Shown in pieces: positions 13,213 to 62,513 of a stretch of DNA of 64,000 bases. The notes below the pieces were generated by a model that was not told the origin of the DNA, searched no databases, and was given only the letters and a program-made list of their open reading frames with translations. A program made the translations under genes and the position numbers. Source of the DNA: Nymphaea colorata (lineage: Eukaryota > Streptophyta > Magnoliopsida > Nymphaeales > Nymphaeaceae); NCBI RefSeq assembly GCF_008831285.2, contig NC_045139.1:4066704-4130703 (forward strand), written 5' to 3'. Numbering within the stretch: position 1 is the stretch's first letter; every line of letters begins with the position of its first letter.

Positions 13213-15552
13213 TCTGTGTGCACAGACATGTGTACGCACATATGCACATGCATGTATCAACAGTTGTGTTCAAATATTCTTCCTTCGTGAGTGCATGTGT
13301 GCGTGTGAGATCCCAGTAACTGCATTGGTAGAAGACTAATCGCTTGTGCCTTGGACCAGTGATCGTCAAGTGCAAAGTTACTGTAATATTATCTACCAAT
13401 ATTATCTACTATTTCTTTTACATCAACTGCTGCCTGACGCTTGCACTATCTGACATTTTATTATCCTTATCCTTGAGGCAGCGACAGCCATGGACAATGA
13501 TGTTTGCATCCCAAATAACAGCTGCATCTTAAGTCCACGGTGACTTGGAAATAACAGCAATAGCTCGAGTCTGCAACATATTGGTTGGTAACTTGGTAGC
13601 GGTAAGGAATATTAGGGCAAGTTAAAAAAAAGATAAAACATGAATCAGGGAATTACTAGTATTCATATAATTGTGCCAACTGAGATTTCCTGCACATGCA
13701 ACTAAAAGATGAAAATGGACGAGGAGGGTTAATTTGTTAGCACGTCTGGTGGTGCGCAAAGAAAGAGGTTTTTGGGGTTGGGGCAGATGCTATCATGGCG
13801 ACTGAAACTTTGGCTATCTGAGTAGAACGATTGACTACAGATGCTTTCATTCGCTGCTGCTTTAAGCCATTTCTGGCATAGGCTTGAAGAATCATACAAA
13901 GAGCACACACGATCGTCTCTCTCTTTGTCGAGTATGTGCTTGTGGGTTACACTTTAGCTGGAATTCTGGTGAAATACTTCAGTTATTTCAGAACTAACTA
14001 TACAGATGTAATCTGCATGTATGGTCCACGCATAATAACTATAGGATGAGTTTTCCTTTTTTTGTAAAACTCGATTTGCATATCAGGAGAGCTCGACCTT
14101 GACTCGGTCCTTTGGTTCCCATGCATCAAGAAGGTGGGCAAGCATGTAATGAAATGCTAAACATGCTGCACCACGCTGCTTCTTCCATCTTAGGTCTATG
14201 AAGTTGGGAGTTTTTTTTTTTTTTTTTTAAAACGATTTGAAACCGTCAGGTTTTGCAGTTTACAAACACGAAGCAGAGAGACAATTGTTCCAGATAGCTT
14301 ATTATATGTTCTATTTCTCCATATTTTTTCTAATATCTACTACATAACGTACAAACACTATTTGACTCACTACTTCAACAATATCTTCCAGTATATCAAA
14401 CTTTTCTACGAGCTGCTACATAACGCTGATACACTAGTACTTGATAGCTGAGCATGCAGTTGTTTGAGCCAACCGTGCATCATGATCACTACCACGGCAT
14501 CATAACCATATAAGATCTAAACTTCTCTGTGAACATTAACCTGAATATGCAAAACACAATTTCGTCAATACAGGACCAAATTTGATCGTAAGTTGAAGAT
14601 TGTTGTATATCATGTAGCACAGAAAGGAATAGAGGCAACGGAAAAAAAAATACCATATTAGTACTCCTTATGCCAATTACTTTTTGTCTTCCTCCTGTGG
14701 AAGGTTACAGATAGCGAGATTAACTAATTTGTTAAACTTAAGAGTGTTATATATGTCTTGATCATAGTAATGTCCGAGCTTCAAATAGTTTAACTAGATC
14801 CTCGAAGGATTCTGCATAGCCATCTTGAGTTCAACAAGTATGAATATGAAAAAACCATGAAGATGGGATGGGCACTTGGGTCGTCCACGCCTGGCACTTC
14901 TTCAATTACAGATCCAAATTTAGGCATGTTTAGCTGGAATTGTGAGGATGCAAATACTGGATAGATCTGATTACAGATCGAATCACAAATCCATTTAGCT
15001 GGATCTTGTAGAAAAAATAACCTAGATCCATTATTAGTAGGATTCTGAATCAAATGCGATAACGTAATCGAGTCTGATATCAAACTAGGATGCCATAAAT
15101 CTGGGATCTTATGCTTGTTGGTTCCAAATTTGGTTTTAAAAGATTGGACTAACTTTGAGCCCAAGTTCCTCAGTCAAATTATACAGGATCGGATTAACTC
15201 GTACCGATAAAGGCTAAATCTGATCCAAACTCGAATTGTTCAAAGAAAACGGGATCATCCTGTAACGAGATTTGGATCCAGTATGCGGTTTCTATGAGTA
15301 GTTAGTATTGACTATTGCATACAGAGAAAGTATGAAACCTGGTTTTGCGCAGGTGACTGCACATTGTGAGGCCGCGTAGGAAGTTTTCCGGCCACCGGAA
15401 AGGATTGACGTGGTATTACGGGTATCCCGTACTGCAAGTTCAGGGGAGGATGAGGAAGCTGAGTGACGTGCGCTGGCAACGCTGCAGCTCTCTGCATCCA
15501 TGGCAGCATCGAAGCTCTTAAAGCCGGAGAATAGGCCATTGCATGAGAAGAT

Positions 15553-16061
15553 TGTTAGAGTCACCACCCACTCCAAGAGTCATCACCGACTCTCACGAAG
15601 CATCTTGAGCCTCCTTTCTTAAGTCGGTGGCTACTAAATAAAAAAAAAAAAATTAAAACAAAAATTAAGTAGAAGTCGGTGGAAGCATCCACCACCGATT
15701 TCCTCTCCCTATAAATAAGGATGTAGGGCCATAGTAAGAGAGTGTAGAAAATCAAGTTGAGTGCTTTTGGTTGTGAGTTGAGTGTGCTCGTATGTTTACT
15801 TGGTGAACTCGAGTGTCGAAGCTTCAAGTGTGTGCTTCAAGGGTACTGAGGTTTTAGCTCACTGCGTGGGTCAAGGTGAGTTTTTTTTGAGTTCTCTTTT
15901 GTAAATCCAGTTTCATGAATAAATAGTTGACATTTTAGAGTATACTCTGCCAAAGTTATTATTAAGAATTGTTCTGGACGTCGAGACTGCTGAATTTTTT
16001 CCGCATAAATTCGAGTTTGTAGCTGAGTTATATTTAGGGCCCGCATTACGTTTTCCCAACA
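15553..16061 (+). repeat. 5' LTR of the palindromic Copia
   Basis: 509 bp, TGTTAGAG to CCCAACA. It contains CTATAAATAAGG near 15,710 as a probable TATA element of the element's promoter. The next bases form the tRNA-Met primer-binding site. Confidence 0.85.
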
Positions 16062-16063
16062 AG

Positions 16064-16075
16064 TGGTATCAGAGC
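16064..16075 (+). promoter_or_regulatory. Primer-binding site, initiator tRNA-Met type
   Basis: TGGTATCAGAGC begins 2 nt after the LTR. It is complementary to the 3' end of plant initiator tRNA-Met and typical of Copia elements. An inverted copy is at 17511-17522. Confidence 0.9.
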
Positions 16076-16137
16076 GAGGTTCTGTCTGAATGCTGTTTTA
16101 CTGGTGAGATTAATTGGGCCAATTATATTATGAAATT

Positions 16138-17340
16138 ATGGCGGCATTAGCGGTTGCATTAAATAATATTGAAAAGGTTAACAATAGCAATTATGGCTAT
16201 TGGAAATCCTGCATGGAGTCATATTTTCTAGGACAGGAATTATGGGAGATAGTTTTGGGATCAGACACAAATATTCCTGTCGACGAAGAAGCGAAGAAGA
16301 AATGGATGATCAAAGCAGGGAAAGCGCTATTTGCAATTAAGGTATCTATTAAGAAAGATTTATTAGAGCATATACGTGATGCCAAGACTACTAAAGAAGC
16401 ATGAGATGCTTTTGCAACGCTATTTTCTAGAGCTAATGATGCCCACTTACAATTGTTAGAAAATGAATTAGCTACAATAACTAAGGGAAATATGATGATA
16501 GCAGAGTATTTTATGAAAGTTAAAAATATCTGTAGAGAAATTTCTCAAATTGACCCTGAGTCCAAAATTAGTGAGGCCCGTATACGGAGAATCCTTGTTC
16601 GCAGACTTCGTTCAGAATTTGGCAGTTTTATAATTGGTGTTCAAGGCTGGCCAATTCAACCAACTTTGTTGGAGTTAAAGAATCTCTTGATCAATCAAGA
16701 AACGTTAGCAAAACAAATGGTTGGGCTTTCTCTCAAAGGAAATAATGAGGAGGCTTTGTTTAGTAAGGGTCAGAGATCACGTTGGCCAGCTAAGCCAGTC
16801 ATTAGGTCTCCAAGTAGGAACATTGGTAAAAAGAAAGAGAAAAATGTAGAAAAGAAAACAAGAGAAACTACACAGCAGTGGAGACCAAAGGTGAAATGTT
16901 TTAGATGTGAAAAATTGGGTCATATTGCTCGTGACTGCAGAGTCAGAATGCATGAAGGAAATACAGTCACGACAAGTAAGCAACATGAGGGAGCTAATGA
17001 AATTGTACAGAAAAGTTTATTTCTGTACTCAATAGAGGTTAAAAAGGATGTTAAACAAGAAAGATGCAATTCCGCCCATATAAAACCTCTAAAAGAAAAA
17101 GAAGAGAAGATCAATTATCAAACTGATTGGATAATTGATTCTGGATGCTCAAATCATATGACTGGTGATGAGAGTAAGTTCGTAAGTATGAAAGAATATG
17201 ACGAAAATTGAGTTGTTATTACTGCTAACAATACAAAGCTCCCAGTGGCATATATTGGAGAAGCAGAGGTTGTAGCTAACTTCGGTAAAGACCGGATTTT
17301 ACGAAACATTTATCATGTTCCAGGAATGACTAAGAATCTC
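16138..17340 (+). pseudogene. Truncated Copia gag-protease of the palindromic element
   Basis: Starts MAALAVALNN. It carries the gag motif SNYGYWK, a CCHC zinc knuckle (CFRCEKLGHIARDC, about 16897-16940), and the aspartic-protease centre DSGCSNHMTGD (about 17137-17170). TGA stops interrupt it at 16402 and 17209. The reading breaks off at the palindrome junction (17336-17342), just after a MTKNL motif that normally precedes the integrase region. It cannot make a working polyprotein. Confidence 0.85.
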
Positions 17341-17524
17341 CCATAATTCCTGTCCTAGAAAATATGACTCCATGCAGGATTTCCAATAGCCATAATTGCT
17401 ATTGTTAAGCTTCTCAATATTATTTCATGCAACCGCTAATGCCGCCATAATTTCAGAATATAATTGGCCCAATTAATCTCACCAGTAAAACAGCCTTCAG
17501 ACAGAACCTCGCTCTGATACCACT

Positions 17525-18058
17525 TGTTGGGAAAACGTAATGCGGGCCCTAAATATAACTCAGCTACAAACTCGAATTTATGCGGAAAAAATTCAACAGA
17601 GTCTCGACGTCCAGAATAATTCTTAATAATAACTTTGGCAGAGTATACTCTAAAATGTCAACTATTTATTCATGAAACTGGATTTACAAAAAAGAACTAA
17701 AAAAAAGCTCACCTCGACCCACGCAGTGAACTAAAACCCCAATACCCTTGAAGCACACACTTGAACACACACTTGAAGCTTCGACACTCGAGTTCACTAA
17801 GTGAACACACAAGCACTCACCAGATCACAAATGGAGCACACTCAACTCACAACCAAAAGCCCTCAACTTGATTTTCTACGTTCTCTTATTATGGCCCTAC
17901 ATCCCTATTTATAGAGAGAGAAAGTCGGTGGTGATGCTTCCACCGACTTCTACTTAATTTTTGTTTTAATTTTTTTTTATTTATTAGCCACCGACTTAAG
18001 AAAGGAGGCTCAAGATGCTTCGTGAGAGTAGGTGATGACTCGGTGGTGACTCTTAACA
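17525..18058 (-). repeat. Inverted LTR copy of the palindromic Copia
   Basis: 534 bp, reverse complement of the 15553-16061 LTR, with extra repeated TCAAGTGTGTG-type units and a different outermost 50 bp. It is followed inward by an inverted primer-binding site, which shows that it is a second 5' LTR and not a 3' LTR. Confidence 0.85.
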
Positions 18059-19671
18059 AAGATGAAACAAATAGTGTACCAGGTGAGCAGCATGACATGG
18101 CTGGCATGTCGTTGTGAACTGAAACTCCATGATTGATTGTTGGTCTCATTGGGTACTGCAGACGCTGACGCTGAAGCGCATCTACAGTGTGATTCGCAAA
18201 GACCTGATTGCCTCCAGCAGTGCCTGATCAAAGCGTGCCAGCTCTATTGGACACAGGTCTTGTTTCCAGAAAAATCTCAGCAAACTAGAACACCCCAACG
18301 TGTCAAGATTTTTTTTAACCTTATAAAAGAATCATTGAGAAGTTCTTGTCATGTACAAATCATATTAAAAAAAGTTACTAAATAGCAAGTGAAATCTATT
18401 TGTCTATGTACATTATGTATTGAATGAACATGCTTCATGATCATAACAGAGCAGTAAAGAAAGCAAATCTGCAGTGCAAAAACTTAAGAACGAGAGCAGT
18501 TTTTATATTTTCTGATAACAGGAAGACCACCCATGAGGTGGAATATCTAGCCGCACTTATTTAAACTGTTGTTTTTAAGATTGCCTCCTCAACAGTATAA
18601 ACCTCCGCAAAGAAGGCTTCATTTTAGCTCTACAAATGTACAGTTTTATATCAGGGAATAAAATTGGTCAATGTTGAGTTTGAGGCCAAGAAGTAGAAAG
18701 ATTAAAGAAAAAGAATTTAGCAGAGTGCTTAAGCGATGTTCAGACTGAAGCGACTTCACATATTCAATTGCTTCATCAAGCATACAGTCAACATCAAGCT
18801 GAAAAATTGAACCACCACATCATAAGCACACAGAAAGAACATTGGGTTTCCCAATTTACTGCAAAATGTTCATCGAGAAATCGAATAAATGCAAAAACAG
18901 GAGAAGTATAAGCGAGATCCTGACTGTGGTAGAGTTGGGGATGTGCAGTTCTCTGATCCGCAAGGCTGCTTCTTCCTGAAAGAAAAAAGCTTAGTCATGA
19001 AACAATTTAACTTACCATACACTTGCAAACATGGGAAAGACCTGGGGAGGGACTATCTTAATTAGTTTGTAATGGGATTGTCTATCATTGTTTTCTAATG
19101 AATTTTCGATGACAATCAATTTAGTGACCAGGCTTGCACAAACACTTCAATGTTTTAGTGGGCATATTAATGTTCTTCACTTGCTCAGTTTGCTAGCTAG
19201 CTAACTTATGCATATGACATTTTTTGTTTATTTCAAAGGTTCTTAACTTGAGAATTCTCATATAAATATAAGATTTTTACTTAAAAGATGGTAAACACGA
19301 ACATGTCTCTAATTTAACAAGAAAAATGCATAACATTAATAAAGTCTGGATCTGTAAAGCGACACATGAGGTCAGGCTTTGACCATGAGGGGTTAATAGG
19401 GACGCGGGTTTTGCGTGGAAGTTATGGCTATAGTAATGCTTCATTAGTTCACCATGAAACAATAATTCAGCAGCCAGTTCAGAAATAAACATTATGCCTT
19501 TACTGCTGAACTGCTATAAATCTTAGCTTACATATCTATGCGGGGGATTCAAATCTGCTGGATGCCATATGTTGGTAGATGGCTAAAAATAAAAATCCAT
19601 CTGGTAGATATATAGGAATTGAAATCAAAAGGCTACCTTATGGTCAGATAGTTATTTTTTAATTTTGTATT

Positions 19672-19815
19672 ATTAAAGACTGTCGCAGAAAGTCCATTTG
19701 CAATGCCAACTGTTTGGCGATGGTTTTGAGTGACAAAATGCACCTTTACATGGTTTTTTGTGACACAAAATAAAAATAACCATATAGTCTTAGAGGCAAT
19801 CAGCTGATTTTTCTT
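19672..19815. repeat. Dispersed short repeat, family A, copy 1
   Basis: Shares a TTTGGCGAxxxTTTT(A/G)AGTGACAAAAT core, then an A-rich stretch, then AGGCxxxCAGCTGATTTT, with the copies at 27.8 and 35.1 kb. Like the 35.1-kb copy it is followed by a CT/TA microsatellite. Probably a non-autonomous element; no target duplication identified. Confidence 0.5.
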
Positions 19816-19942
19816 TTCATATATATCACAAAAATAGACGTCACATTTTTTTTTCTTTTAACCACTTATCATGTTGGATCGAATAGTGCATATTAGATAG
19901 CAGTGTGATTCTAAAAAATTAGAATTACAATTCGATTTTTTT

Positions 19943-20094
<152 letters not shown>

Positions 20095-20473
20095 AACTAA
20101 TATTAGAAAGTATGTGTAATGTTTGACAAAATAACAAATATTTAAACATAGGCATGAATAATATACTTCAAAGCTGGTTTTGACTATTACGTTTTCACAT
20201 CCACCAATCTTGACATGCATGACCGACATAATATCATGTGGCATGGACACCAAGCAGCTGTCTTTTTTTTTTTTCTTTTTTTTCTTTTTCTTTTTTAGCA
20301 TGAAGAAACCATGCAATACAATTGTCTTTTAAATAAGGTAAAAAACCGTGGCTAGTACCCTGGCTATAAGGGCATGAACTTTATCTTTGCTTCAGCTTGC
20401 GCAAAAAATGGTGCCATGAGATTTGAACTTTTGATGTACGAGTTCAAAGTGCCATGGTGCACCTGGCTTACAC

Positions 20474-20672
20474 GGCCGGATCCAGGGGGCGGAGGGAAGG
20501 GGGGCCGGTAGATTTTAAAAACTTCAAAAGTTGATATAAATATAAAAGAAAATTAGTTTAATATATATATAAAATTTGAAAATCTCTATTTCGGCCCATG
20601 TTAAAATTTTGAAACTATAGTTTGACCACTGCGACAAAAAATTCCTGCCTCCTCCCTCCTCCGCCCCTGACC
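20474..20672. repeat. Short dispersed element, family B, copy 1
   Basis: About 200 bp with a GGATCCAGGGGGCGGAGG head, an AT-rich centre and a CCTCCGCCCCTGAC tail. The head/tail style matches the segments at 27430-27625 and 44974-45170. No coding capacity. Confidence 0.4.
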
Positions 20673-23600
20673 GAAGCACCAACATCTTTACAGGCCAAAG
20701 CAAGCATATGTCTTGGGGTGAGGTAGTATCCTCAGAGTTTTATTCTGCCGTGCCAATGATAAAGTTTCTCGACCTAGGTGCTGTTTTTTTTTAAATAAAA
20801 AATTTAAAAAATGGTTAAAACATTTTTAAAGTGCCCATTAATGAACCTCATGCATGTAGAACGTTCCTAAGCAACACAGCTACTAAAACCACTGCTACAC
20901 AAAATCTGTTGCAAGAAACACGCAAACTCAATTAGGGATCTGTGCATACACTAGAAAATATGGAGGGCAGAAACGCACGTCCCATTGCTTATTTGGCTCG
21001 ATGGACCTGTGGAATGCTCAGAGTGCACTCTGTGGGGGCCTTACAAAAGCAGTTGCATGGCCCCATGGAAGATGAAACCTGTGGCCTTTGGTATGTTCTA
21101 GTCCATGGGCAGCCAACTGGCCACACATTCCTTCTCTTAGCCACATGCAGAACTGCTTGCTCTCCAATTAATTTTCTTTGTCTACATCTTGAACTCAGAT
21201 GTTCATCTCATCTACAGTTTGGTTTGTAATAGAGAAGTTCCAAAATCATAAAGTGCTTCCGGTGAGTAAGAGGCTAACAACCCATCACTCGAGACAAGAA
21301 ACCTACAGATGCAAGCGCCCCTCCTCCCCTTTGCACCCCCAATTCCCTTTATAACTAGGGTCATGGGCTGCTTTGGCTTCAACGATGACAATGTTATACC
21401 CTTTAACTTCGGTATTGTACCCTATTACTTATGACGTAGAGGCATAATGTTCATGGGAGTCGAAATTGAACTTGCCTTTTTACATGTCTTTAAGACCAGC
21501 TACACCATGCCCTTTGAGGATACAAACAATATCTAAAGCAAAAAAGTGCAGTTGATATAAAGCAAAAAGTACAGTTGCTACATGATCATCATATGAAGAT
21601 CAACATATATAAGCCAACAGAAAATAGTTTGTCAATTAGGGATCTAATCCTGTAACAAAATCATTTGCCGAACTAGATTAGCTGCTTAACTCGTCAGAAT
21701 ATTTAGGTTTAATTTGTTATAGAGTCTGGCGGATCAAACTTTAAGTTCAGAAAGAACATGGATAGAAATTTCAATAACATTGGAATTCTCATTGCAATTA
21801 CAGAAACTCACACTAGACTGAGATCCAAAGGCCTATATTTGGAGTAGATATAATTGGGAATTGTATTCAGATTCGATTATTGCATGTTTTTAAGATCCAT
21901 ACATTTTTGTTGCAATATCTGCCATCTAAGTATCAAATTAATCTGCAATCCGGCATGTTAAGCATCTTCAGCCTCACAAATTAATCTGAAGTGACTGTCA
22001 AAAGGATAACTATCATTTTCTGAAGTTCTGTGTTCGTTTTTATATCTGAATTTAGATTTATATCAAATCATCCTGATTGCCCTTGGCTGAGATCCACGTA
22101 GGTAATCGTGTGTGTAAATGTATATTTGGGTATACCCATAAAAGTGTGATGAATTATATCTAACTCAAAAAGTTAAGAAGCTGGTGGAAAATGTAACTCT
22201 CGATAACCCAAATAGCTGACAAGAATCTAGTTTTTAATGTTTAATTTGAAAGAAGAGAAAACGCAAAAACGAGAGAAGATAATGCAGATGAGGTTGAGGT
22301 TGAGGACGGCTCTCAACGTAAGTACCATTAATGAAGGCGTTAACATAGCTGATAAAGATCAGGGAAGAAGGGTAACGCAGCAGTATTCCTCTTGAGGCGG
22401 TTGACATTTATATCACTGCACTCTCGATTCATGCAAGAACGAAGAAAAAACAGGGACATGCAAGATTGCAGGGTGATGAATTACTTTGTTCTTGCTCCAT
22501 TGCCTGTTTAAGCTTTTCAGCCTCTTATACGCCTGCATCCTTTTTATCCCCTAATCTTGGGTTCTCATCCTTCTTTCCTTCAAGAGCGAAGCAATTATCA
22601 CGGTTTGTCTTAACTAAAGATTTGCATTGATGGCACCTTGGCTTACAGGTTCAACATCTTCTTTTCCCTTTTCAATACATCGTTTAATTTGTCTTTGGCT
22701 TTCCGTTTCTTTCTTTTTCCTGTTCGCATCTTCAATCGCCTTTGGTCCCTAAACGATTTCTTTATTATTTTTCAAGAATTTTCCTTGCCTCTGCTATAGA
22801 TTTGCTTGATCTGGCAGCTCGACTTGTTTCCTTTCAGGTCGTGCAGTCGCTTGCTTTCCCAGCTTCCATGCACTGGTCACAGTCATGAGTAATGCTGCCA
22901 TTTTCATCATTTGCCTCTGCTGTGGATCCGCTAATTTCTATGGCATCCCATTTTTATGATGTGCTGGTCATGCTATTGTTGAATTAAAATTCATCGTTCT
23001 TAAATATTCTAACACTGCTTGTATGATCAATGGGGATGGAAAACATGAACCCAATTCATAGATCTACGCGTTTCTGCAAGGAGACTGAAAACAAGCTATT
23101 TTATAACCTGTTTCTTTCTCTGTTTACTGAAGCAGGCAGTAGTCAATGCCTGATCTGATGTGAGAATAAAAGAAACATTGACAAAACAGGACATATCACA
23201 CGACCTAAGTCCTGACAACAGTCGCTGCAGTAGTTGCCTGCAATAGAAGCAAGAAACATTCCTCTGCTTTAAAAGCGATTTTAGTGACCATAAGAACCAG
23301 TTGATGGCAGGCAAGAGCACCAAATAAAAGAGAAACTAAAATTCTGATGAATTCACCCGACAACTGAAAGGAGTGTTTTCTTCAACAAGCTGATTACCAC
23401 TGTATCAACATAAAAAAAATTGGCTCTTGTTGGTCCATATAACAACAATTAATTTAAACTTTAAACCTACAGCCTGTTACGCACGATTCACAATTTCACA
23501 TTGGCAACACGTATCAGTTTCTCATCGAATATGAGACAGGAACCGAGATTTACAACATTGCTGCGAGCTGAACAGATCAGAAAATTGTTGGGCTTCAAAA

Positions 23601-24746
23601 TTTTGTCAAGCTAGAGCATGTCAGGATGTCACCAAGTACACACAAAGAAGAAGTTGGTGTGCACAGGAAAGTTTGGGATCGGATTAATCAAATGACAAAA
23701 CATTTATACATTGACAGCCAAAAACAAATTCTAAATATGGCCATTAGGGAGGTACTTAATCCACAAGGGCTTCTCATACCTTAAGTGAATGGGGTTAAGT
23801 TGTCATAAACTTCTCCAAATTGAAGGAGATAGAGTTTAAATATGCCCAGTTTGATTCCTTTTTCTATTTTCACAGCACTGCGGCAACCAACTTCAACCGT
23901 GATTCTGTGAATGCCAACTGCAGATGTAAACCTTGGCTTGCCATAGATCGTTTGAGCTTAATTTGTAGGTAACAGCCATGCACCAAGAGTGCATAGTAAA
24001 GCTATTTTATGTCTTTTATTTCTTATACACACTGCTGTTATATAACATAAAGATAATGCTTGCGGTCTGACTGTGTACATCCTGCAACAAGCGAACTGCG
24101 TTAACATATGTGGTGGAGTAGACCATATAAGCAGCACCAGCATTCGTCCTGAAATATAGTTCAGAAATTAAAAAGCAGCATTGCTTTGAATCTGTAACAT
24201 TATTCCAATATGTACTAGCATCGACCTCTTTCTCACTTTGATAGGCAAAGGCAGGACATACATCCTTTTATGTCAAAAATGAAATAGAAAACATGGCCTA
24301 GGTATTGAACTCATGACCTCCTTTAGCTTTGACTCCCTAATCTGGCAGCCCAAGTTCTCTGGCAACTGCCAGCATAGCAAGAAGTTGACAAAGAATGAAC
24401 CAGAGCGAAAAGAACAGACGCAACAGGAGACTACCAGTTTATATGCTACTTCTGACTGCCCATGGAGAGTTTTTGAGCCTGTTGCACATAGAAAGTGGAA
24501 AAAGTGAAGACAAAAAATTTTCTGTAATATTTGTGCAGCATAACAGTAGCATAAATTCTATACGCAATCTTTTGCAGACGTGGCCCTAACAGAAGTGTCC
24601 TGCATTTAGTGCGCTAGAATAAAGCAGTAAAGCACCTTTGCGTTAACTACATGGATGTGATTTTCATGTTCAACCAAAAGCTTAGGGGTGACTCAATTTT
24701 CTAAAACATAAGATTTTATGAGAGAAAAGTCTATTTTAATACATAC

Positions 24747-24749
<3 letters not shown>

Positions 24750-24809
<60 letters not shown>
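24750..24809. repeat. (TA)n microsatellite
   Basis: Interrupted TA repeats just downstream of bHLH copy 2 exon 5. Confidence 0.9.
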
Positions 24810-24884
24810 TAAAAAGGAGTTTAATGCTAGCATGTGCCAGATGTTGTTGGATGGTTAATATAATGATCACAGAGAGCTATGAAC

Positions 24885-26232
24885 CTGGTCTACAGGTGCA
24901 TGTAGGTGAACAGACTGAGAGCATTCTGTATCATCAGTCGTCGATGAAGAAAAATCACGAAACCCAGGTCCTCCAAGCTGCAGATCAACGGGAGGATGAG
25001 GGAGCTGCATGACATGCATGGGAAAAGATGGGACTCCATGGAACCATGGCACAGTTGAAGCTCTTGAAAGAGAAGAATGAACTATTGTAGGAGAAGAAGA
25101 GATCAGCGGAACAGTTGCATAGCATCCCATGCATGGGTTGCCATGGCCACAGCGCCTTCCTTGATTGATTCTTAGTCCCGCTGCTTCAAACTGAGGGTGC
25201 CACAGTCCACACTGAAGCTCAGGCGTGGGTGCACCAAATGGAGCAATACCGGACGCCTTACTCTCAATCAACATTTTCTGAGCAAAGCATGTTCAATCAC
25301 AGTCACAGATCTGTTCTTAAAGAAAAAAGAAATATCAAGTTGCATATTGCTTTACGGCAAGGTAATTACCTTGCTTTAACGTGTATACATGTACAAAATA
25401 TGTAAACAAGAAATGAGATGGAAAAATTGAAGATCTGTAATGTTCTTTCTCTGATTTCTGTCATGTCCGAAGGAATAATCATTTAACGTTTTTAATGAAG
25501 AGTTTTCTTTTGGTTAATTGGTCGCTTAATATTTCCAACATATGTTGCAAAAGGAAATTAATGATTTTCCGGAGCCTTGCACAAACAGTTGAAGAATTCT
25601 TGTTTTTATGTATCTTTTATCATGAAAATCTTTTGACAGATTGTCAAATCAATATTTGATTTAACTATTAAACAGTAGTATATATAGTTGACAGATAGCA
25701 ATATAAATTAAGTGCCAAATTAAGAAAGTTTTTGTATGTGCAAAGTATTTACAATGATCATATTTAATCTAACTCAAAATTTTGCATATATATATAAATG
25801 GAGAACAACATTAATTTGCTTTGCTCCTTTCAGTATTGATGGGAAAAAAGAAAAGAAAAGAAAGTTTAACTGAGAAAGAGAAGTAAACAAAGAGCTTACA
25901 GAAACTTGGAACTGAAGAGATTTGGCATATACAATTGCTTCATCGAGTACAGAGATCATGTCAAGCTGAAAAGTTCAACGATCACAGGCTAAGCATAAAG
26001 GTTTTCCTAGTAGTATGCATTTCGAATGCAGTTCTGAGTATAATGTCGCTCCTGTAAAAAAAGCGAAGTAAAGACGAAAGCGGAAACTAATCTGACCTTA
26101 TTGGAACTGGGGAGAAGTGCTTGCAATTCTCTGATTTTTTTCTTGATTCTGCCTCCATGTTCCTATAGGAAAATGAACACCAGTTAGCGTTCAACTCACA
26201 CTTCACATACATGCAAACGTGAAAATGCATGT

Positions 26233-26288
<56 letters not shown>

Positions 26289-26555
26289 AACACAAGTCAC
26301 CTTCATCATCAATCTAGTTCTATATTACCATCGTATCGGTTCTTTTCTCATATGATCTTCAAATATTTGCAAAATATGAAAAGGATAATATTATTTAGTC
26401 CCCATGCATGATGATAAGCAGCACCATCTATACAGAATTATGATACCAGCACCAATGAAAGCTCATATTAAAATCAATATATTAAAAAAAAAACTTACTT
26501 CTTCTCCTTTAGTTTGCTTTGCACGTCGACACTTCCTCCGCTTTGGCTCCTGTCC
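24885..26555 (-). CDS. bHLH array copy 2: PIF-like HLH gene with eroded basic region (partial model)
   Basis: Four exons join in phase 0 with intact GT-AG sites: 26499-26555 (basic region), 26097-26162 and 25900-25965 (the two 66-nt HLH exons), and 24885-25277 (131 codons, C-terminal). Helix 1 contains IRELQALLPSSNK and helix 2 LDEAIVYAKSLQFQV, so dimerisation looks possible. In the basic region, the HER contacts used for E-box binding are changed: Gln replaces His5, Glu9 is kept, and Gly replaces Arg13. Stable E-box binding is therefore unlikely, which recalls non-DNA-binding HLH regulators. An upstream exon candidate is at 29566-29634. The small 3' coding exons seen in copies 3-6 were not found, so the stop is unknown; reading through exon 5 would end at 24867. 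It may be a functional short HLH or an early pseudogene. Confidence 0.6.
26233..26289. repeat. (TA)n microsatellite in copy 2 intron 2
   Basis: TA repeat interrupted by TG and TTTA, lying between exons 2 and 3 of bHLH copy 2. Confidence 0.9.
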
Positions 26556-26653
26556 CTAGTCGCAAAATTAGATTTGCACCTAACTTCAGGATCTTGTTGG
26601 AAAGATAAAAAAGTAAAAAAAAAAGAAAAAAAAAAGAAAAAACTGATAGTTTT

Positions 26654-26656
<3 letters not shown>

Positions 26657-26719
<63 letters not shown>
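26657..26719. repeat. (TA)n microsatellite
   Basis: About 31 TA units upstream of the copy 2 basic-region exon. Confidence 0.95.
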
Positions 26720-26720
<1 letters not shown>

Positions 26721-27429
26721 CGACTCTAAAGCACTGCACTGGCGTAGTGGTCGGCATTCAACCACTTCCCTCGTGAGATTGCAGAAAAAAGTGATTAGGC
26801 AACTGACGAAGGAAGATCCGTGGTGGCAGTCTCGGCCATTTAACCTAAAACATTATCATTCTCCAGCAAAAACAAAAAAAGTCATCCAGATGATACGTAA
26901 ATCCCATATATATATTGTTGGAATGGCTAAAAATTAAAGACCACCTCTAAAAACACCAAAAACTGTTCTTAAAAGCATCATAATTTTTTCTGCACATAAC
27001 ATACATAGTTGCTAATGCACTTACAACAACTATCCACCAACAATAACACACTGAAGTATACACACACATAAAAGACAGTTTCTTTTTCTCTTATTCCTAA
27101 ACGTCCTAGCATAGATGTCAGCATTAATGATAGGGATACTTTTCTTTAAAAAAAAACTACTTGAAAAATGGATACTTGAACTAAGGGATTCCACACTCAC
27201 ACACTGATACACACGCATAAATGAAGAAACACACACATATACATATATGAATAAACATGAAAGCCAATTAAACATTGAATTGTGTATGCCACTGCTGATA
27301 TTGCTCATGTGCAGCCACTAGTAGGGACACTCATTTAATATCTTCAATTTGTTTGGGGCATTCATATATATACAAACAATTAAATATATCAAAACATTAA
27401 CATAATATTAAAGTAATCTTGTGAGGTTG

Positions 27430-27625
27430 TCAGGAGCGGAGCAAGGATTTTTTTTAGGAGCAGGCCAAACAGGCCAATGAACTTATTCAGACAGGGACCA
27501 AACTAAACCTGAATCTAAAAAATACACTACCCAACTAAAAGTTTTCAATTTTTTTAATGTATTTTTTTTTTCACTTAGTTAGGGTGGGGCCACGGCTTAG
27601 GCAGCCCCCCTCCCTCCACCCCTGA
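27430..27625. repeat. Short dispersed element, family B, copy 2
   Basis: Head AGGAGCGGAGCAAGGATTT, AT-rich centre, tail CCTCCCTCCACCCCTGAAGG. Similar in layout and length to 20474-20672. Confidence 0.4.
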
Positions 27626-27834
27626 AGGCTGCTTTGGGCAATTGTTCACACCAGTGACTCTGCCACTGTGTGCAACCTAAAGTATTACCATGAACTCTGA
27701 AGATGATTGTTGGAAAGATAAAGGTAAGAAAAAGAAAAGGTGAGAGAAATTAAAAGAAGTTGAAATCTATGACAGAAAAATAAGTTAGAAAAACTTGTAT
27801 ATGTATATAGTATATATGAAAACAAGGATCTTAA

Positions 27835-27925
27835 AATTTGCAGACATTCTGTTGCTAAAGCTGCCAATACACATTTGGCGACAATTTTTAGTGACAAAAT
27901 AAAAAAAAGACTATCTAGTCACACA
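27835..27925. repeat. Dispersed short repeat, family A, copy 2
   Basis: Shares TTTGGCGACAATTTTTAGTG with the 19.7- and 35.1-kb copies, and is likewise followed by a dinucleotide repeat (CA/GA). Confidence 0.5.
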
Positions 27926-28062
27926 CACACACACACAGAGAGAGTTTTCCTGAACAAAAAGACGACTTGAACCTGCACGCGTATTTGAACTAAGGGTTTC
28001 CAATACGTACTTTATATAAGCAAAGATACATGCATGATGCAAGGAGGCAAATTAAACGCAGA

Positions 28063-28170
28063 AATGTATCTCGTGGTGCAGCTGCCTGATATGCATTACC
28101 ATGAACGAACTCGAAAGAAGATGACGAAGAACAGTGCAGATCCGCGACTGGGTTGGCGTCCCCATGCATG
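28063..28170 (-). pseudogene. Relic of a bHLH exon 5
   Basis: The minus-strand reading has CMG near its start and MHIRQLHHEIHF near its end. This resembles MHVTQLHHPPIY in copy 3 exon 5 and MHVMQLPHPPVDL in copy 2. The intervening SSS-rich part is shortened. No neighbouring HLH exons are recognisable. It suggests a further, nearly erased array member between copies 2 and 3. The match is short and could be fortuitous. Confidence 0.4.
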
Positions 28171-29045
28171 CGCTTGGGTGCACATTTAACGTACTCCGCA
28201 GATGCCCAACGGAATGAAGAAAAATATCTGCGGCCTTCATTCGTACATTCTAGACGGTCGGCCCACACGCTAGATGCCCGACACCTGGAGCATTTTCAGT
28301 TTAGTTTTGTCTTCTGCACATATTTAGGCTTCCAGGAAATCCTGTGTGCTCCTCCCTTCGAATCTCATTCTTAAACTGATTTGACATCCCTCGCTCTCTC
28401 TTGTTGGTGGGCTTATGATAGTTTGAGTAAACACCCTCTTGTTGTCAAGAGTCAAACACATGAACAGCGTCCTCAAACAGGTTGAAAAAGTGTCTGCTGA
28501 ACACTTGTGAAGAGAGAGAAAGAGAGATTTGGATCTCTCTAGGCCCGTCTAGTTCTATCAAAACTTTATCTCCCTTTATCTCTAATATATATATATCTCT
28601 CTCTCAGGCTCTTCTGGATGCATCGGGCCTGCTTGTCCCTAGTAAGATTTCCCTGTACAATCCCTTCTTTTTTTGTCACCATGTAAATGGAGCGATAAGG
28701 CTTAAAAAACCACAGGCAAAAATTGAAAACATGCGGTGATGAATACTGTTAGCTGTCAAAGATTGGGGGCCGTCCACATCCACTTATCAAAAGATGTACT
28801 AAGAGGTCGTCTCATTGCTTGAAACAGAGTTCTGTTCAAGCATTTAACAGTGAAAGGTGAATTAAACACATGGATCAAATTAATGAAAAAGTTATGTCAC
28901 CATAGTGCTCTGTGCTGGAACGGCACATTCCAAAAAATGTAAGTGTGGCAGTATGGTGCAGGTATTTTATTAATATTATTATATTTAGATAACAGAATAA
29001 ACATATTATTACAATTTAGTTATGAGTCGAAGTCGCACCCATGTG

Positions 29046-29488: not shown

Positions 29489-29565
29489 ACCCATGTGCGC
29501 ACCCGATGTGGACTCCAATACGACAGTAAAATAACATAGTCTCATGACTTAATGAAAAAGCGTAC

Positions 29566-29634
29566 CTGATTGAGCAAAGCCCATGAATCGAATTCTGTGC
29601 CTCCAACGACTGTTTGAGTGGCTGTCCGCTCCAT
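29566..29634 (-). CDS. Orphan first-exon candidate (bHLH copy 2 or the relic copy)
   Basis: An ATG at 29634 opens 23 codons starting MERTATQTVV and ending ALLNQ at a strong CAG|GTACGC donor in phase 0. Exon 1 of copy 4 also ends in Asn-Gln at a phase-0 donor, and copy 2 exon 2 begins in phase 0. No clear TATA box is upstream. The link is by position and splice phase only; it would skip a 3-kb intron. Confidence 0.35.
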
Positions 29635-35152: not shown

Positions 35153-35198
<46 letters not shown>

Positions 35199-37159: not shown

Positions 37160-37225
37160 GTGAAGAGGATGGAAGATAAAGTAAAAGTTGCTGCACAGTT
37201 CACCTTATCAAACACAGATGCTACT

Positions 37226-40683: not shown

Positions 40684-44380
<3,697 letters not shown>

Positions 44381-46483: not shown

Positions 46484-49436
46484 TTAGCTTGAACCTGCAC
46501 CACAGAGCAAAACTCAGAGTAAGATGTAGAAACCAAACAATATGCTGTGGAAGGTCTAGACACAAAGGAAAGTACCAGTGTCCCAGTTGTTGCTTTCCAA
46601 TTTGGTATTTGAAGTCTCTTCCATATCCTGCAAATAAATAAAGCAACATGCTTAACTCGTTATACTCCATATTCAACATCTTGACCTTTGCCCGGAACCC
46701 TTCTACTAGAACTACAACAACAGCAACAATAACTCTTCCTGTCTCTCACTCTCTTTGTCTCTCTTTTATACACATGTATATTTTCATGCTAATGGAGTAA
46801 AAAATCCACTCTTGCTAAAAGTTGTGGCCCAAAGATCTAGACTTAGTGTTGATTCAGTGCTTGGATGAATTTTATGCAAAACCAAGTTGACATAACCAGG
46901 GATTACCTAAACCCACCTTCTTGGATCTCAGCCTTCTAACAAATCATGAACAGAAAGGCTCACCAATCCTGAAAGACTTTCGAATCTCGGCGAGGTTTGT
47001 GCTCAAGCCAATCAAGGTAACAAAGTCCCCGCGAGACTCAGCTACCCATGTCTGTCCTTTATGGAGTGGCGTAGATTTATTTCAATGAAGGGGACTTGAA
47101 TAGCAACACAGTTATTAGGGCAAAGCAACGCTATTTCTCTGAATGTATAGAGATCTGAACCTGGGTTTGCATAGGCAGCTGCTGATGATTCAATGCTGTT
47201 GGGATGCCGAGTGCTACTGGACTGAACCAGCTCGGTGGGCGAAATCCTTCATACTGTAACCCCGCTGGGGCATGTGGCATTTGAAACAGAGGCAGAGAGG
47301 GGAACCCATGGAACCGTGGCAGGGAAGAAACTCTTGAAAGATAACACTGAGCCATTGCTTGAGAAGAAGGTAGTGAAGGAACACTCAAGGACCTTAGCAT
47401 GACTGGCTTGCCATCATCATTGAAAGGCATTTCTTCATTGTTTCTTGGTTCCATTGATCCAAACTGAAGAAACTGAGGAGATTGACGCCCAGCTGTGGAA
47501 GCACCAAGTGGAGTTGCAGTAGGATTATTCATTTTCACCCACATTTGCTGAGAAATATATGCCAAAAGAAAAAGGGGTTCATCAAAAAGTTCAGACAATC
47601 TATAATGGTGGATGATATATTGTAAGTAAATCATGTTGGTTCAATATGTAAAGAGACACCTTACATGGACGTAATGTTGAAGAGATTTCACATAGTCAAT
47701 GGCTTTGCCAAGTACAGATGCCGTGTCTACCTGCACAATTGGGATGTAGCTTTCAGCATGATTTGCCAATGATGAGATCGATTTTTGAAACAAATCTGGT
47801 TTTTGAAAATTATTCCGACAGGTGGCTTTAATAAAATAAAATCAATTGATTAGCATTGATCTGAAGCAGCTATAATTCTGAATTGCATAACGATACAAGG
47901 AACAGATAATTCAAGAAATTACTTAAAATACTACGAGAATTAAATAATGCTTTTAGAATCTTGAATCAATTGGAAAAGAACTGATAGTGATTACGAAAGC
48001 TTATGGCCAAGAAAGTCTAAAAAAATAAACTAATTAATCAAAATTCCTATTGATAAAATATACGAATAAAGAGAAAAAAAGGTAGAAGCCGCCTAACCTT
48101 CTCCACTTCTGGAATAAGTGATTGCAAGGTTCTCATTTTCTGGTTGAATTTTTGCCTCCGTTTCTGCTGAGAAAAGGGTTAAACAGAATGAACCTGCAAG
48201 TTATGAGTTCACAGAACATGTGCCATGAAGTTTTCACATGTTGATGAACATAACCATGTATCTCTCAAAAGAATGAAAAAGAAACTAAAAGTTATGATAT
48301 GTCTTTACACTTGCCGATATCGGTAAATCAGGATTTCTTGTGTTGCATTGTACATGTAATTCCACCAACAGATTGAAACTTTTTATAATACAAATTTATG
48401 AGTATTGCACTGCACTGGATTAGCAACGGAAAGAGAGTGCAAAACTTCTTGTTTACTGAAGCTAAATCAGACTAAAACCTCTCACTGTTAGCATCAAAAT
48501 TAGCTTGAATATTGAAAACTTTTTTTTTAGTTCGAGCTCTTTAGCTTTTTAATCCTTGTAATTAAAATAACACATGAGACGTTAGATATTGTTGACGGGC
48601 TTTTGAGAAATATGAATATTTTTATGTAAATTGATTCAGACATATGAATTTAAAGTCAATAGCATACATTTTGACTACCCGCAACGAAACCTGATTCATG
48701 AATTAACTCAACTACTAAAATCATGAACACATGATGAAACACTCCTATATTGGTTGAGGTCTCTAATGAGAAAGCACAAGAAAAGAAGGAATTGCCTTTA
48801 TGATTAATATATTTTGTCGATTAACGCGAAACTAATGAGCACTTGGTACAGTGAGACTCACCTTTTCTGCTTGACTGTGCCTCTCTGCATCCCTCCGATG
48901 CCTCCTTGGGCAGCCATTCTTCCTCCACAATTTGGCATCCTAAAACCAACAAAAGATGCACATGAGTTTAGACAGACAGCCATGTCTAAGTCACTAAGAA
49001 TTGAAAGAACTTGCTCACAGATGCTCACTTCAGTTGTCTTTTCCTTTGCTTCACTAATTTTCTGAACCACCTCTCCGCCATCATCTCTCCTAGATAACTC
49101 CCACCCACCAGAGCTCATCTCATCCACCATCAGATTACTCGACGAGCCCACTCCAGAGCACAGCTGCTCGACATGATCATCCACTGAGTTGGGCACAAGC
49201 ACAGAGTCACCTAAGGATGGTGGTGATTTCAATCCCAGCTCATTCAGGCTAGCCTGCGGGTCGGGCTGCAAGGCCAAGGGCTCATCACAGAACACCTCAG
49301 TGCTGCAACCTTCACTAACTGAAATCTGCAATGGCGAGACAGTATTGAATTCCTGAAGGTCGCCACCGCCGTTAGAAAAACCTTCGCTGTTATTGCTGCC
49401 CAATAACCAGTCGAGCATCTTATCGAACTCACCCAT
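46484..49436 (-). CDS. bHLH array copy 5: full-length PIF-like bHLH transcription factor
   Basis: Seven exons: 49029-49436, 48862-48939, 48098-48163, 47665-47730, 47161-47547, 46576-46627, and 46484-46494 (stop TAA). About 355 residues. Exon 1 (136 codons) begins MGEFDKMLDWLLGS and is acidic, ending in SGGWELSRRDDGGE and EAKEKTTE. Exon 2 supplies a strongly basic stretch (KLWRKNGCPRRHRRD, likely nuclear signal) and HSQAEK. Across the exon 2/3 junction the basic region reads HSQAEKKRR with His5, Glu9 and Arg13. Helix 1 is KMRTLQSLIPEVEK; helix 2 is VLGKAIDYVKSLQ, with Gly-Lys replacing the usual Asp-Glu. The 129-codon exon 5 has the array's MAQCYLSR and FQMPHAPAGLQ motifs. Canonical splice sites throughout and a TATA box 104 nt upstream argue for a live gene. 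Nuclear E-box binding is inferred from the family. Confidence 0.85.
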
Positions 49437-51026
49437 GAGTAGGAGCTAGGTGAATTAGCATAGAACACTCTGCACACTCTGTAAACTGAAACAGAGCAAA
49501 CTAACACCTTTTTTATTTTGTTGAGACGCAAGGTGGATCTATTTATACATGTTGGCACCCAGAAAAGAGACCAGCATATGGAAGCCATGGGAGTTTTCTA
49601 TTATTAGAGAGAGCAAGAGAGAGTTCTGTGAGTTTTTACTGTAAGAATGGTAGTCCAGAAACTCTCACGTATGAGAGGGAGAAAGCGCCAAAATTCCACC
49701 GCAAAGACCCTGGTTTCGGAATACTGTAGCTCGTTGTTTTGATACGTGGGTGAAACCTGTAGAGGCCGGGCCGGTCTGAACTCGGCCGGCTAACCTCGTT
49801 AGTGGCTGCACCAACGTCCACCTGGAACAATCCCAGCTGCTAATTATGAAGCCCTAACCCAAATTTTTCCAAGTATATTTATCCAATTAAGAAGAAGATG
49901 ATTATATGTGATGGTTAACTCATTATTAGCACGAATTCTTTTCCTCACATAAACATATTTTATGATGAGTGAACCTGTTCATGTTGTGGTGAAAACATCA
50001 GAAAGCAAAGAACAAAGGAGAAAAGAGAGAGAATTCAGTGACAATAGAAAATTATGGTAATCTGTAAGTAACCCGAAATACATGAACAAGCCCCTTTTCA
50101 TAAGAAACTTGAGCCTTAGATCTGAATTAGATCTTGGACCAGATCCAAACTCAAACCAACAACTATAATCCACTCGAAGGATCTAAACGGATTCAAATCT
50201 ATCTAGGATCCGGACTCTAAGCACGCTGCATCATGTGAAGGCGACCATTTTGGAAAACATTACATTAAGTAATAGGATATGGGGAAGCCGATGAAGAGAA
50301 GAAGCCTTTTTTTTTGTAACTTTGATTGGATCTCTTCTGCACTTTGGCAACCACTAAATGTGAATAGAATATCTTTTTAAAGGGCATCTTTGTCTCTTAC
50401 GGATGTCCTTTTGCCTTGTTACATGGAGATTTTTTAGAGATATTTTTTGTCATTTCGGCACCGAAACCTATTGCACGATTCAGGGACAACTTTGACTTTA
50501 GGACATCAATTTGAATTTTCATTGTTTCTCAATGGTTTTCTTTATACTGAGTGTCACTGATTCAAAAAGTATATCAGCCCAATTATACGATCTAATCTGC
50601 ATTACTATAGAGAGTTCTAGAAAGCCTTTTACAACACGTATGCAAACAACAAAAAGTTGATAGGACAAAGTGATGAGAAGCCTAGAGAAAACTAAGAAGC
50701 ATCTGCCCCTTGTTTGCGTTTGAATGTACGGAGAATCAGCAGATGGAGAGAACACTATTGAGTCAGCAACATGTTTCATTCATAGATGATTCTAGATCTC
50801 TCTTGAACATTTTGTTCTCTCTCTCTCTCTTTCTCTCTCTAAGTCATCATCTTCCATGGGCACCCTGATTTTGCAAGTTCCAGTTTTAGATGCCCCTTCT
50901 CTCTACCATCCAAAAGTCCAGAATCAAATTAAGGACAAGGACTACTTGATATGAGGCTTGTAGGAAGCCTTGTGATGGAAGAGACTTTTCCTCGTACAGG
51001 GTAGACTTGATGTTCTTGTACTTGAA
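49437..51026. other. Upstream flank of copy 5
   Basis: Promoter and duplicated upstream flank. A short GATC-word-rich stretch lies at 50080-50220 and a (CT)n tract near 50,818. No gene is seen. The Tnt1-like Copia is inserted at its far end. Confidence 0.6.
49540..49547 (-). promoter_or_regulatory. Putative TATA box of bHLH copy 5
   Basis: TATAAATAGATCC on the minus strand, 104 nt above the ATG. The homologous position in copy 6 reads TATAAGTAGATCC. Confidence 0.65.
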
Positions 51027-60035: not shown

Positions 60036-62513
60036 TTAACTTGAGCCTGCAGCAACGTAGAGCAGAACTCAGAGTGAGATGCAGAAATCGAAAAAGATGT
60101 TGTCGAAGGTCATATGAGAAAAGAAAGTACCATTGCCCAAGTTACTGCGTTCCACTTCTGCATCCTGCTGAAAAATAGAACAACATACTTAACTCGCGTT
60201 ATCCGCCGACTATAGAACTACAACAATTACAGCAACTACAACTTTCGGCTGTAGCCTTCCCCCATGTTTTCCTTGCATTCGGGTTTACAGAGCTTGCATG
60301 GCGACTTTTATAGTTCAAGAGAGTAACACACTGGGTTGTGACAACGGCCACGGGGTTTCGTAACATAGACTTTTTTTTCAGTTCACTGTCTTTCTGCCCA
60401 GTTGCCTACGCCCTCGCTCATTTAGACTGACATGGGACTTGAATAGCAGGATAATTAGGAAGGATTCAGCAAGGCCATTTCCCTTAGAGATATAGAAATA
60501 TGAACCTGGGTTTGGATAGGCAGCAGCTGATGATTCGACATGGCCGGGACGAAGAGTGCTACTGGACCGAACGCGTGCGGCGGGTGAAATCCTTCATACT
60601 GCAACCCTGCAGGTGGATGTGGCATTTGAACTAGAGGACTTAGCATAGGTGGGAACCCTTGAAACTGCGGCAAAGAAGAAGCTCTTGAAAGATAACACTG
60701 AGCCATTGCTTGAGAAGAAGGAAGCCGAGGAATACTCAAGGACCTTGGCATGACTGGCCTGCCATCACCATTGAAAGACATTTCTTCATTGATTCTTGGT
60801 TCCGTTGATCCAAACTGAGGAAGCTGAAGAGATTGAAGTGCTGCGGGGGAGGCATCAAGCGGAGTTGCAGTAGGATTCATTTTCTCCAACATTTCCTGAC
60901 AAATGAATGCCAATGTAAAGGTTGATGACAAAGGGATGTGGATTGATGAGGAAGGTGCATATGATCTATAAATATAAACTGATCATATTGGTTCGATAAG
61001 TAAAGAGAAAACCTTACATTGACGCGAAGTTGAAGGTATTTCACATAGTCAATGGCTTTGCCAAGAACAGACTCCGTGCCCACCTGCAAAATTAGGAACT
61101 AACTTTCAGTATGATTATAACCAATGTTGTTGATCGGTTTTTGGAAAAAAAAAAAGAACTGCTTTAAAAAATATTTAGAAGGGTGGTGTTAGTCAAATGA
61201 AATTGATTAGTTTTCAATATTTGAAGCAGCTATAATTCTGAATTGCTTAAATCGATTAGAATTTAGTAATGAGTTAACTAATGTCAGCTTGATTTGATTC
61301 AATCGATTAGAATCTATCTTAGAAACAATTGAGAGGTGATTAAATCGCTGTTGGTAAAAGATAGGGAAAAAGAAAAAATAAAAAGGCAGAAGTAGCCTGA
61401 CGGCCCTGACCTTATCCACATCTGGAATAAGTGATTGCAAGGTTCTGATTTTCTGGTTGAATTTGTGCCTCCGTCTCTGTTGAAAAATGATATATTAAAC
61501 AAAACCAACCTGCAATATGAATGTACGGAACATATGCCATAAATATTACAACCAAGCCCTGTAAAGGTTATTAATACTGAAGAAAAACTTTAGTCCACAA
61601 AATGAGAGCTGAAAGTTGACCCAGAGTCTTAAGCCTGCACTCTTTACGCTGTACCTTTGTAAAATTGATAATTCTAACCTTCCCCAAAGCACAAATACAC
61701 ATCATTATTATGTAGAGTTAACCAACTGATATACCGCGCGATGCATGATGAGATATGGTGCATTAATGGAGCCATGTAATGTTGAAATTCTTTGAACCAA
61801 TAATTGCAGGGACAGAAGGTATTTATATCAGAAAAACACAGGAAAAAAAAAAGAATTGCCATTGTGATATGTTTGAAGAAAGAACTGCAGCATATACTTT
61901 GCCAGTTAACACGAAACCAATCAGCAACTATTACAGTGAGACTCACCCTTTCCGCCAGACTGTGCTTCTCTGCATCCCTCCGATGCTTCCTTGGATAGTC
62001 ATTCTTCCTCCACAATTTGGAATCCTAAAATCAACAAAAGACGCAACTAGAGTTGGACAGAGAGCTCAATGACAGTGAAGAAACTTACTGAAAGATACTC
62101 ACTTCAATTGTCTTTTCCTTTGCTTCGTTAAGTTTCTGAACCTGCTCCCCACCATCGTCTCTCCTAGAGAACTCCCACCCACCAGAGTTCGTTCCATCCA
62201 GGATCAGATTACTTGTTGAGCCCACTGGAGAGCGCAGCTGCTCGACATGACCGACTGAGTTGGGCACGAGCACAGAATCATGTAAGAAAGATGATTCCAT
62301 CATTCCCAGCTCATTCAGGCCAGCCTGCGGGTCAAGCTGCGAAGCCATGGGCGCATCACAGAAGAGCTCAGGACCGCAACCTTGACTAACTGAAATCTCC
62401 AATGGCGACACATTATTCAATTGTTGAACGTCGCCATAGCCGTCGCCATTGGCATTGCCGTCGCTGCTGCTGCTGCCCAGTAACCAATCAAGCATCTCGT
62501 CGAAGTCGCTCAT
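60036..62513 (-). CDS. bHLH array copy 6: full-length PIF-like bHLH transcription factor
   Basis: Seven exons: 62103-62513, 61947-62024, 61411-61476, 61018-61083, 60506-60895, 60131-60164 (or from 60167), and 60036-60046 (stop TAA). About 351 residues. It is the duplicate of copy 5: MSDFDEMLDWLLGS start, SGGWEFSRRDDGGE in exon 1, KHSLAER then RRRHKF as basic region (His5, Glu9, Arg13 kept), helix 1 KIRTLQSLIPDVDK, helix 2 SVLGKAIDYVKYLQ. In the two HLH exons I count 17/22 and 16/22 identical residues with copy 5. Exon 6 has a CAGCAG tandem acceptor that could add or drop one Gln. All splice sites are GT-AG and the frame is open. Likely a nuclear E-box-binding factor; targets unknown. No APB motif. 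Confidence 0.85.

Follow-up and report, generated by a model that had tools for sequence, protein, structure and literature searches.

A local array of divergent subfamily VII bHLH genes, with long and short members, in the water lily Nymphaea colorata

The window analysed here, a 64,000-nucleotide stretch of Nymphaea colorata DNA (contig NC_045139.1, positions 4,066,704 to 4,130,703; the contig is called C2 below), contains an array of basic helix-loop-helix (bHLH) genes. Self-comparison of the window and exon modelling place six bHLH-type loci, numbered copies 1 to 6, on its minus strand between 15339 and 62513. The array had been reported by an earlier note on this DNA and is real. Its six loci do share one strand within the window, but two further copies, 7 and 8, lie on the plus strand about 11 to 27 kilobases (kb) past the window end. 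Against the Pfam HLH family PF00010, whose cut-off is 20.7 bits, copies 3, 4, 5 and 6 score 29.4, 38.6, 44.3 and 41.1 bits, and copy 2 falls under the cut-off with 17.4 bits. Individual exons and open stretches gave no HLH match with Pfam because every exon is too short.

Copies 4, 5 and 6 constitute a long class with complete seven-exon models, in which the introns are GT-AG, the phase is consistent and the frame stays open. Copy 6 (60036..62513, minus strand) is assembled from 62513-62103, 62024-61947, 61476-61411, 61083-61018, 60895-60506, 60164-60131 and 60046-60036 and encodes 351 amino acids (aa). Copy 5 (46484..49436, minus strand), of 355 aa, comprises 49436-49029, 48939-48862, 48163-48098, 47730-47665, 47547-47161, 46627-46576 and 46494-46484. 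Copy 4 (40684..44380, minus strand), of 311 aa, comprises 44380-44021, 43932-43858, 43455-43390, 43269-43204, 42632-42330, 41795-41741 and 40694-40684. The seven-exon layout, previously ascribed to every locus, is shown for these three of the six. The models end in GSN in copy 4 and in GSS in copies 5 and 6. RefSeq protein P0019 (310 aa, 'PIF-LIKE 13-like') equals copy 4 over residues 1-290 and then runs past the exon-5 donor, leaving exons 6 and 7 of that copy as predictions. A 65 base pair (bp) direct tandem repeat, 98% identical, lies downstream of copy 4 at 39900-40029.

Ahead of exon 3 of copy 5 stands a tandem acceptor, CAGCAG (48169-48164), whose upstream AG adds one residue to the basic region and shifts its register. 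An eroded basic region in copy 5 was considered and dropped, as the downstream acceptor keeps the H-E-R-R register; the choice between the two is a possible splice switch of DNA binding. Copy 5 sits in a block, 46020..50829, that is repeated directly as 59574-63544 around copy 6, with DNA pieces 71-82% identical through the introns and both flanks, which indicates a separate direct duplication of 4-5 kb as the origin of the pair. The two proteins are 70% identical and equally distant from P0001 of Victoria cruziana (54.1% for copy 5, over its whole length, and 55.4% for copy 6), and for this reason their distances fit a later duplication or gene conversion. Between the two genes, at 51032-56467 on the plus strand, lies an element judged by eye to be of Copia type, its coding part broken into several open stretches and its ends (51032-51714 and 55787-56467) resembling long terminal repeats, 95.6% identical. 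Two pieces at 57081-57809, 70-73% identical, recur directly just past the window end (right flank 858-1380); a single duplication therefore does not account for all the repeats around copy 6.

The short class within the window consists of copies 2 and 3. Copy 3 (32164..35727, minus strand) is modelled as exons 2-7, namely 35727-35650, 34525-34460, 34349-34284, 33554-33165, 32327-32273 and a last coding piece, 32168-32164; exons 2-6 have canonical sites and the last exon would end after one codon. Its exon 2 is open in two frames, and RefSeq LOC116248434 isoform X2 (P0017) is copy 3 with the other exon 2 frame and an upstream exon 3 acceptor, which yield a different basic region. P0018, the N. 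thermarum model of copy 3, has a different starting exon; the window matches this exon at 37419-37351, with L in the position of its first M. Copy 2 (24885..26552, minus strand), with an eroded basic region, is modelled as exons 2-5 (26552-26499, 26162-26097, 25965-25900 and 25277-24885); the 5' end of its exon 2 is unsure and does not fall on a splice site. The surroundings of copies 1-3 and of copy 7 yielded no convincing match to the long first exon.

Copy 1 (15339..18975, minus strand) holds only exons 3-5. Its exon 3 (18975-18925) has 17 codons, not 22, its exon 4 (18798-18733) has the donor TT, not GT, and its exon 5 (about 18224-18060 plus 15551-15339) is interrupted by a 2.5-kb insertion. 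The short exon, the lost donor and the split exon mark copy 1 as dead. The insertion (15552..18059) is an odd palindromic retroelement, 'copia-like' by eye, in which inverted blocks at 15552-16250 and 17336-18059, 89% identical, face each other around a gag-type open frame. A separate relic exon, listed in the earlier note, did not hold up: every piece outside the models that scored better than E 0.4 belongs to copy 1.

Beyond the window, copy 7 (C2:4141612-4143906, plus strand) has exons of 81, 66, 66, 258, 46 and 11 bp with canonical sites and an HLH score of 29.7 bits. Of copy 8, likewise on the plus strand, exons 3 and 4 are placed at about C2:4156057-4156321; this copy resembles copy 1, and its 19-codon exon 3 and broken exon 5 mark it too as dead. 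A left arm at 18199..37803 aligns in inverted orientation to a right arm outside the window: the stretch from 18.2 to 37.8 kb matches C2 4139.2-4156.9 kb through colinear inverted BLASTN pieces, 68-86% identical and about 4.5 kb aligned in total. In a control comparison with window 18-38 kb, the right-flank stretches L035, L038 and L034 contribute 2,978, 1,044 and 487 inverted aligned bases, the first figure taking in some non-colinear similarity between copies 2 and 7; L070 gave 140 inverted bases, L039 gave 197 direct bases, and L033, L036 and L037 gave none. Because copies 7 and 8 resemble copies 3 and 1, an inverted duplication of the arm took place. A search of the right arm for a counterpart of copy 2 found none; it was either lost or never copied.

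The genome searched comprises 407,766,735 bases in 783 contigs. With copy 5 as query, its 32 matches are the array itself, other bHLH genes, a piece on C5 and a weak match on C3. The C5 piece (L036 4955-6348) is a relic of the copy 5/6 class with three stops, and it partly retains intron sequence, so it is not a retrocopy; the C3 piece (L037 4745-4976) is a frameshifted exon 1/2 remnant of the same class. Genome queries with copies 4, 2 and 7 brought up no further recognised relative outside C2 besides other bHLH genes. The 14 matches of the copy 7 query at E up to 0.1 all lie in the array or at other bHLH genes already seen; this query missed copy 8, which shows that decayed copies can escape such a search. 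Intact, short, basic-region-altered and dead copies standing together, with dispersed relics on C3 and C5, bear out the birth-and-death evolution that had been proposed for the locus.

The family to which these genes belong was addressed with two trees, one of 62 columns and 18 rows and one of 44 columns and 27 rows that includes PIF-, UNE10- and SPT-type genes of N. colorata. The rows took in 8 of 16 proteins plus P0020 and P0021, near duplicates being omitted, and the N. colorata rows of the second tree are seven genes chosen by eye from 91 genome matches, 30 of them with loci; the type labels are our own, from sequence features. The possibility that the copies belong to unrelated bHLH subfamilies was checked in the 62-column tree, which instead splits the array together with phytochrome-interacting factor (PIF), SPATULA (SPT) and fern sequences from three other bHLH sequences with support 96/98. 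The 44-column tree is too short to repeat this subfamily VII split, which there needs two changes and appears as one branch side in 42% of bootstrap trees. It does recover the grouping of the HLH sequences into copies 1-3, copy 4 and copies 5-6 that had been noted before: a short class of copies 1, 2, 3, 7 and 8 with Victoria P0011 (95/94), copies 5 and 6 with P0001 (98/96), copy 4 with P0020 and P0021 (93/85), and the long class as a whole (81/75).

Pairwise identity and gene structure can be set beside the trees. Over the bHLH domain, PIF, SPT and fern sequences of other plants share 45-53% identity with copies 4-6, and the three other bHLH sequences share 27-38%. With copies 2, 3 and 7 the corresponding ranges are 32-43% and 23-38%, and since these overlap, identity does not clearly place the short class. 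In copies 2-7, helix 1 and helix 2 are encoded by exons 3 and 4 of 66 bp each, in phase 0; the third exon of copies 1 and 8 departs from this, having 17 and 19 codons. The same 66 + 66-bp pair occurs at each of the four PIF-type loci of N. colorata that were read, on C10, C14, C12 and C4, where seven of eight donors are GT and the second donor of the C14 locus would be GC.

The earlier description of the genes as PIF-like stands only as far as membership of subfamily VII is concerned. No core resembling the phytochrome-binding motif (APB) is present in copies 4, 5 and 6 or in seven close Nymphaeales proteins, and all seven legume PIF-type proteins have one; the loose pattern used was drafted after the legume sequences had been seen, and the strict form ELxxxxGQ matches none of 27 proteins. 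Copies 2, 3 and 7, modelled without an N-terminus, are uninformative on this point. Lacking an APB-like core, copies 4-6 are subfamily VII genes that are not shown to be phytochrome-interacting factors. An N-terminal amphipathic helix is a feature of SPATULA and ALCATRAZ, and the 'DEIFGFLF' of copy 4 resembles, by eye only, the 'DEISLFLRHIF' of B. rapa SPT. The array is best read as a divergent branch of bHLH subfamily VII (PIF/SPATULA) without a recognisable phytochrome-binding motif.

The difference between the two classes lies in the residues that touch DNA. According to the excerpted text of a study of PIF3 (PMC11552376), DNA is contacted through H348, E352, R355 and R356, whose roles were measured or modelled for AtPIF3; the dissociation constant is 0.32 µM for the wild type, 3.39 µM for H348A and 106 ± 112 µM for R356A, and the dimer needs M363, L366, Y388 and L392. 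All four contact residues are present in each of the six long-class sequences, namely copies 4, 5 and 6, Victoria P0001 and P0021, and N. thermarum P0020. The short class retains one of four in copy 2, three in copy 3, two in copy 7 and one in Victoria P0011, and R355, the only contact residue lost by copy 3, is replaced in all four. The G-box-contact set is complete in copies 4, 5 and 6 and incomplete in copies 2, 3 and 7. The four dimer-core positions, with I, L or V allowed at M363, are kept in all ten long and short sequences. This count leaves out dead copies 1 and 8, P0019 (identical with copy 4), and P0017 and P0018, the copy 3 models in which exon 2 is reframed and exon 3 skipped, respectively. 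The loss of contacts with retention of dimer residues recalls HFR1 (AT1G02340), which according to the available part of PMC7383782 has no DNA-binding ability and competes by dimerising with PIFs; the pattern is seen in copies 2 and 7 and in P0011, and copy 3 is short of R355 only.

Both classes occur in Victoria cruziana. Its P0001 matches copies 5 and 6 at 54-55% and its P0021 matches copy 4 at 54%. P0011, which begins in the exon-2 region, is the closest Victoria protein to copy 2 among the matches listed; this tie is one of identity, P0011 matching copy 2 at 59% and copies 3 and 7 at 37-39%, the tree fork being unsettled. With Victoria relatives for copies 2, 4 and 5/6, at least three of the lineages were probably in place before Nymphaea and Victoria separated. 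The ratio of nonsynonymous to synonymous substitution (dN/dS) is 0.52 for copies 5/6 (bootstrap 0.36-0.69), 0.63 for copies 3/7 (0.41-0.90) and 0.35-0.63 for four other pairs, values that fit relaxed purifying selection and are no proof of function.

To the left of the array, positions 1-13000 probably hold a plus-strand gene in many small exons. No Pfam family matched the patchwork of open stretches in these 13 kb; the gene may resemble a plant nucleotidyltransferase-like protein such as Arabidopsis AT2G01220. The stretch left of the window (L033) encodes a mitochondrial ribosomal protein domain (PF10213, 2.2e-09).

These observations present a model that we consider to have about an even chance of being correct: a Nymphaeales array of a divergent subfamily VII branch whose long members bind DNA and whose short members act as HFR1-like competitors. 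The array grew by tandem duplication, giving copies 5 and 6, and by inverted duplication, giving copies 8 and 7 from copies 1 and 3. Long members (copies 4, 5 and 6), with a full G-box-contact set and a long first exon, would form G-box-binding dimers. Short members (copies 2, 3 and 7) would pair with them or with canonical PIFs, and by analogy with HFR1 such mixed dimers would have little or no affinity for DNA. Dead by-products are copies 1 and 8, together with the C3 and C5 pieces. A local cluster of this kind may make both regulators and their own inhibitors. A stronger form of the model is offered tentatively, as rather unlikely to hold in full. It pictures a self-contained water-lily regulatory module uncoupled from phytochrome, in the sense that the phytochrome-binding motif is missing, in which one locus makes G-box-binding bHLH proteins together with HLH-only antagonists from an older sister class, both classes predating the Nymphaea/Victoria split and kept through the inverted duplication.

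Several points weigh against the competitor model, and some of them favour plain birth and death, in which copies 4-6 alone work and the short copies are decaying or functionless, with frames left open by chance. This is a real possibility, if not a probable one. Copies 1 and 8 and the C3 and C5 relics are clearly dead. Neither copy 2 nor copy 7 has a clear start exon: exon 2 of each is without an in-frame ATG, and in copy 2 a stop lies two codons ahead of where the model begins, so both need a first exon not yet found. The copy 3 models conflict as well, the N. thermarum protein P0018 skipping exon 3 and the RefSeq isoform taking exon 2 out of frame. The dN/dS values are high, as under relaxed selection, with 0.63 for copies 3/7 and 0.65 for exons 2-4 of copies 5/6 when these are cut roughly, and no N. 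colorata protein for copies 2, 5, 6 or 7 is among the matches listed in protein searches. Mere decay, however, sits poorly with the canonical splice sites and open frames of copies 3 and 7 over six exons and of copy 2 over four (5' end unsure), with upper bootstrap bounds of dN/dS below 1, and with a Victoria relative of copy 2 that at 59% identity has the same short build and likewise lacks the DNA-contact set. A further weakness of the competitor model is that the dimer core is not discriminating, being passed by all 18 sequences compared, other bHLH families included. Residues beyond the core differ as well: copies 3 and 7 carry Q in place of K362, and copies 3, 5, 6 and 7 have D383 altered. 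The authors of the PIF3 study term the binding of their mutants partial (PMC11552376, as excerpted). The single origin of the array is weakly supported, at 68/0 in the 62-column tree and at 73/84, for one side of the branch, in the 44-column tree.

The loss of contact residues itself admits another reading, in which the short members bind DNA at a changed site and have diverged in target choice, not into inhibitors. Copy 3, which keeps H348, E352 and R356, may still bind DNA; the basic region of copies 3 and 7 is net positive, and three sequences of other bHLH families hold just one or two of the four contact residues. A changed site is nonetheless improbable given that R355 is replaced in every short-class sequence and that copy 2 and P0011 hold one contact residue of four. 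Still less probable is that these are ordinary phytochrome-regulated PIFs multiplied locally. The subfamily and exon layout are those of N. colorata PIF-type genes and the RefSeq name of copy 4 points the same way, but the APB-like core is missing from the long copies and their close relatives (by a pattern made post hoc), and the 44-column tree puts none of the array sequences with the PIFs.

A comparison with known systems shows which parts of the locus are familiar. The earlier note held that plant PIF/SPATULA genes are usually dispersed singletons. This is wrong in part. N. colorata has at least four dispersed PIF-type genes, but Arabidopsis AT4G28790, AT4G28800, AT4G28811 and AT4G28815, listed as bHLH23/56/119/127 of subfamily 24 with PIFs, SPT and ALC (PMC7383782), belong to the same subfamily and have neighbouring numbers. 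That they form a local array is suggested by the locus numbers, the available part of PMC7383782 not using the word tandem; the likeness to the water-lily array is one of subfamily and locus numbers, and the four Arabidopsis proteins are not among the matches listed in the protein searches. Given these genes, arrays of this kind are probably not new. The canonical PIF- and SPATULA-type genes of N. colorata (C10, C14, C12 and C4; SPT-type on C3) share the 66 + 66-bp helix exons in the same places, but they lie on other chromosomes and have helices near the PIF/SPT consensus, whereas the array has strongly diverged. HFR1 resembles the short class in combining altered DNA-binding residues with an HLH domain in the same subfamily; it differs in that the short water-lily members, known here from sequence alone, share an array with contact-complete relatives, while the PIF and HFR1 activator/antagonist pairs of Arabidopsis are known from separate loci (PMC7383782, in part). 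What looks new is that a single array in an early-branching angiosperm combines contact-complete with contact-deficient classes, and that it has undergone inverted duplication. No paper on the N. colorata array was found among the titles and abstract starts in partial literature listings, and the term 'bHLH' is absent from the main text of the published genome (PMC7015852) as far as available.

The four DNA-recognition residues have been postulated to be fixed early in land plants (PMC11552376, as excerpted). The short class is a case from the same subfamily in which DNA-recognition residues have changed and the dimer core has not. Should the short copies turn out not to be expressed, the locus would be an ordinary case of birth and death. 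If the competitor model is true, the array would offer a way to study, residue by residue and with Victoria marking a point in time, the origin of HLH-only antagonists from parents that bind DNA.

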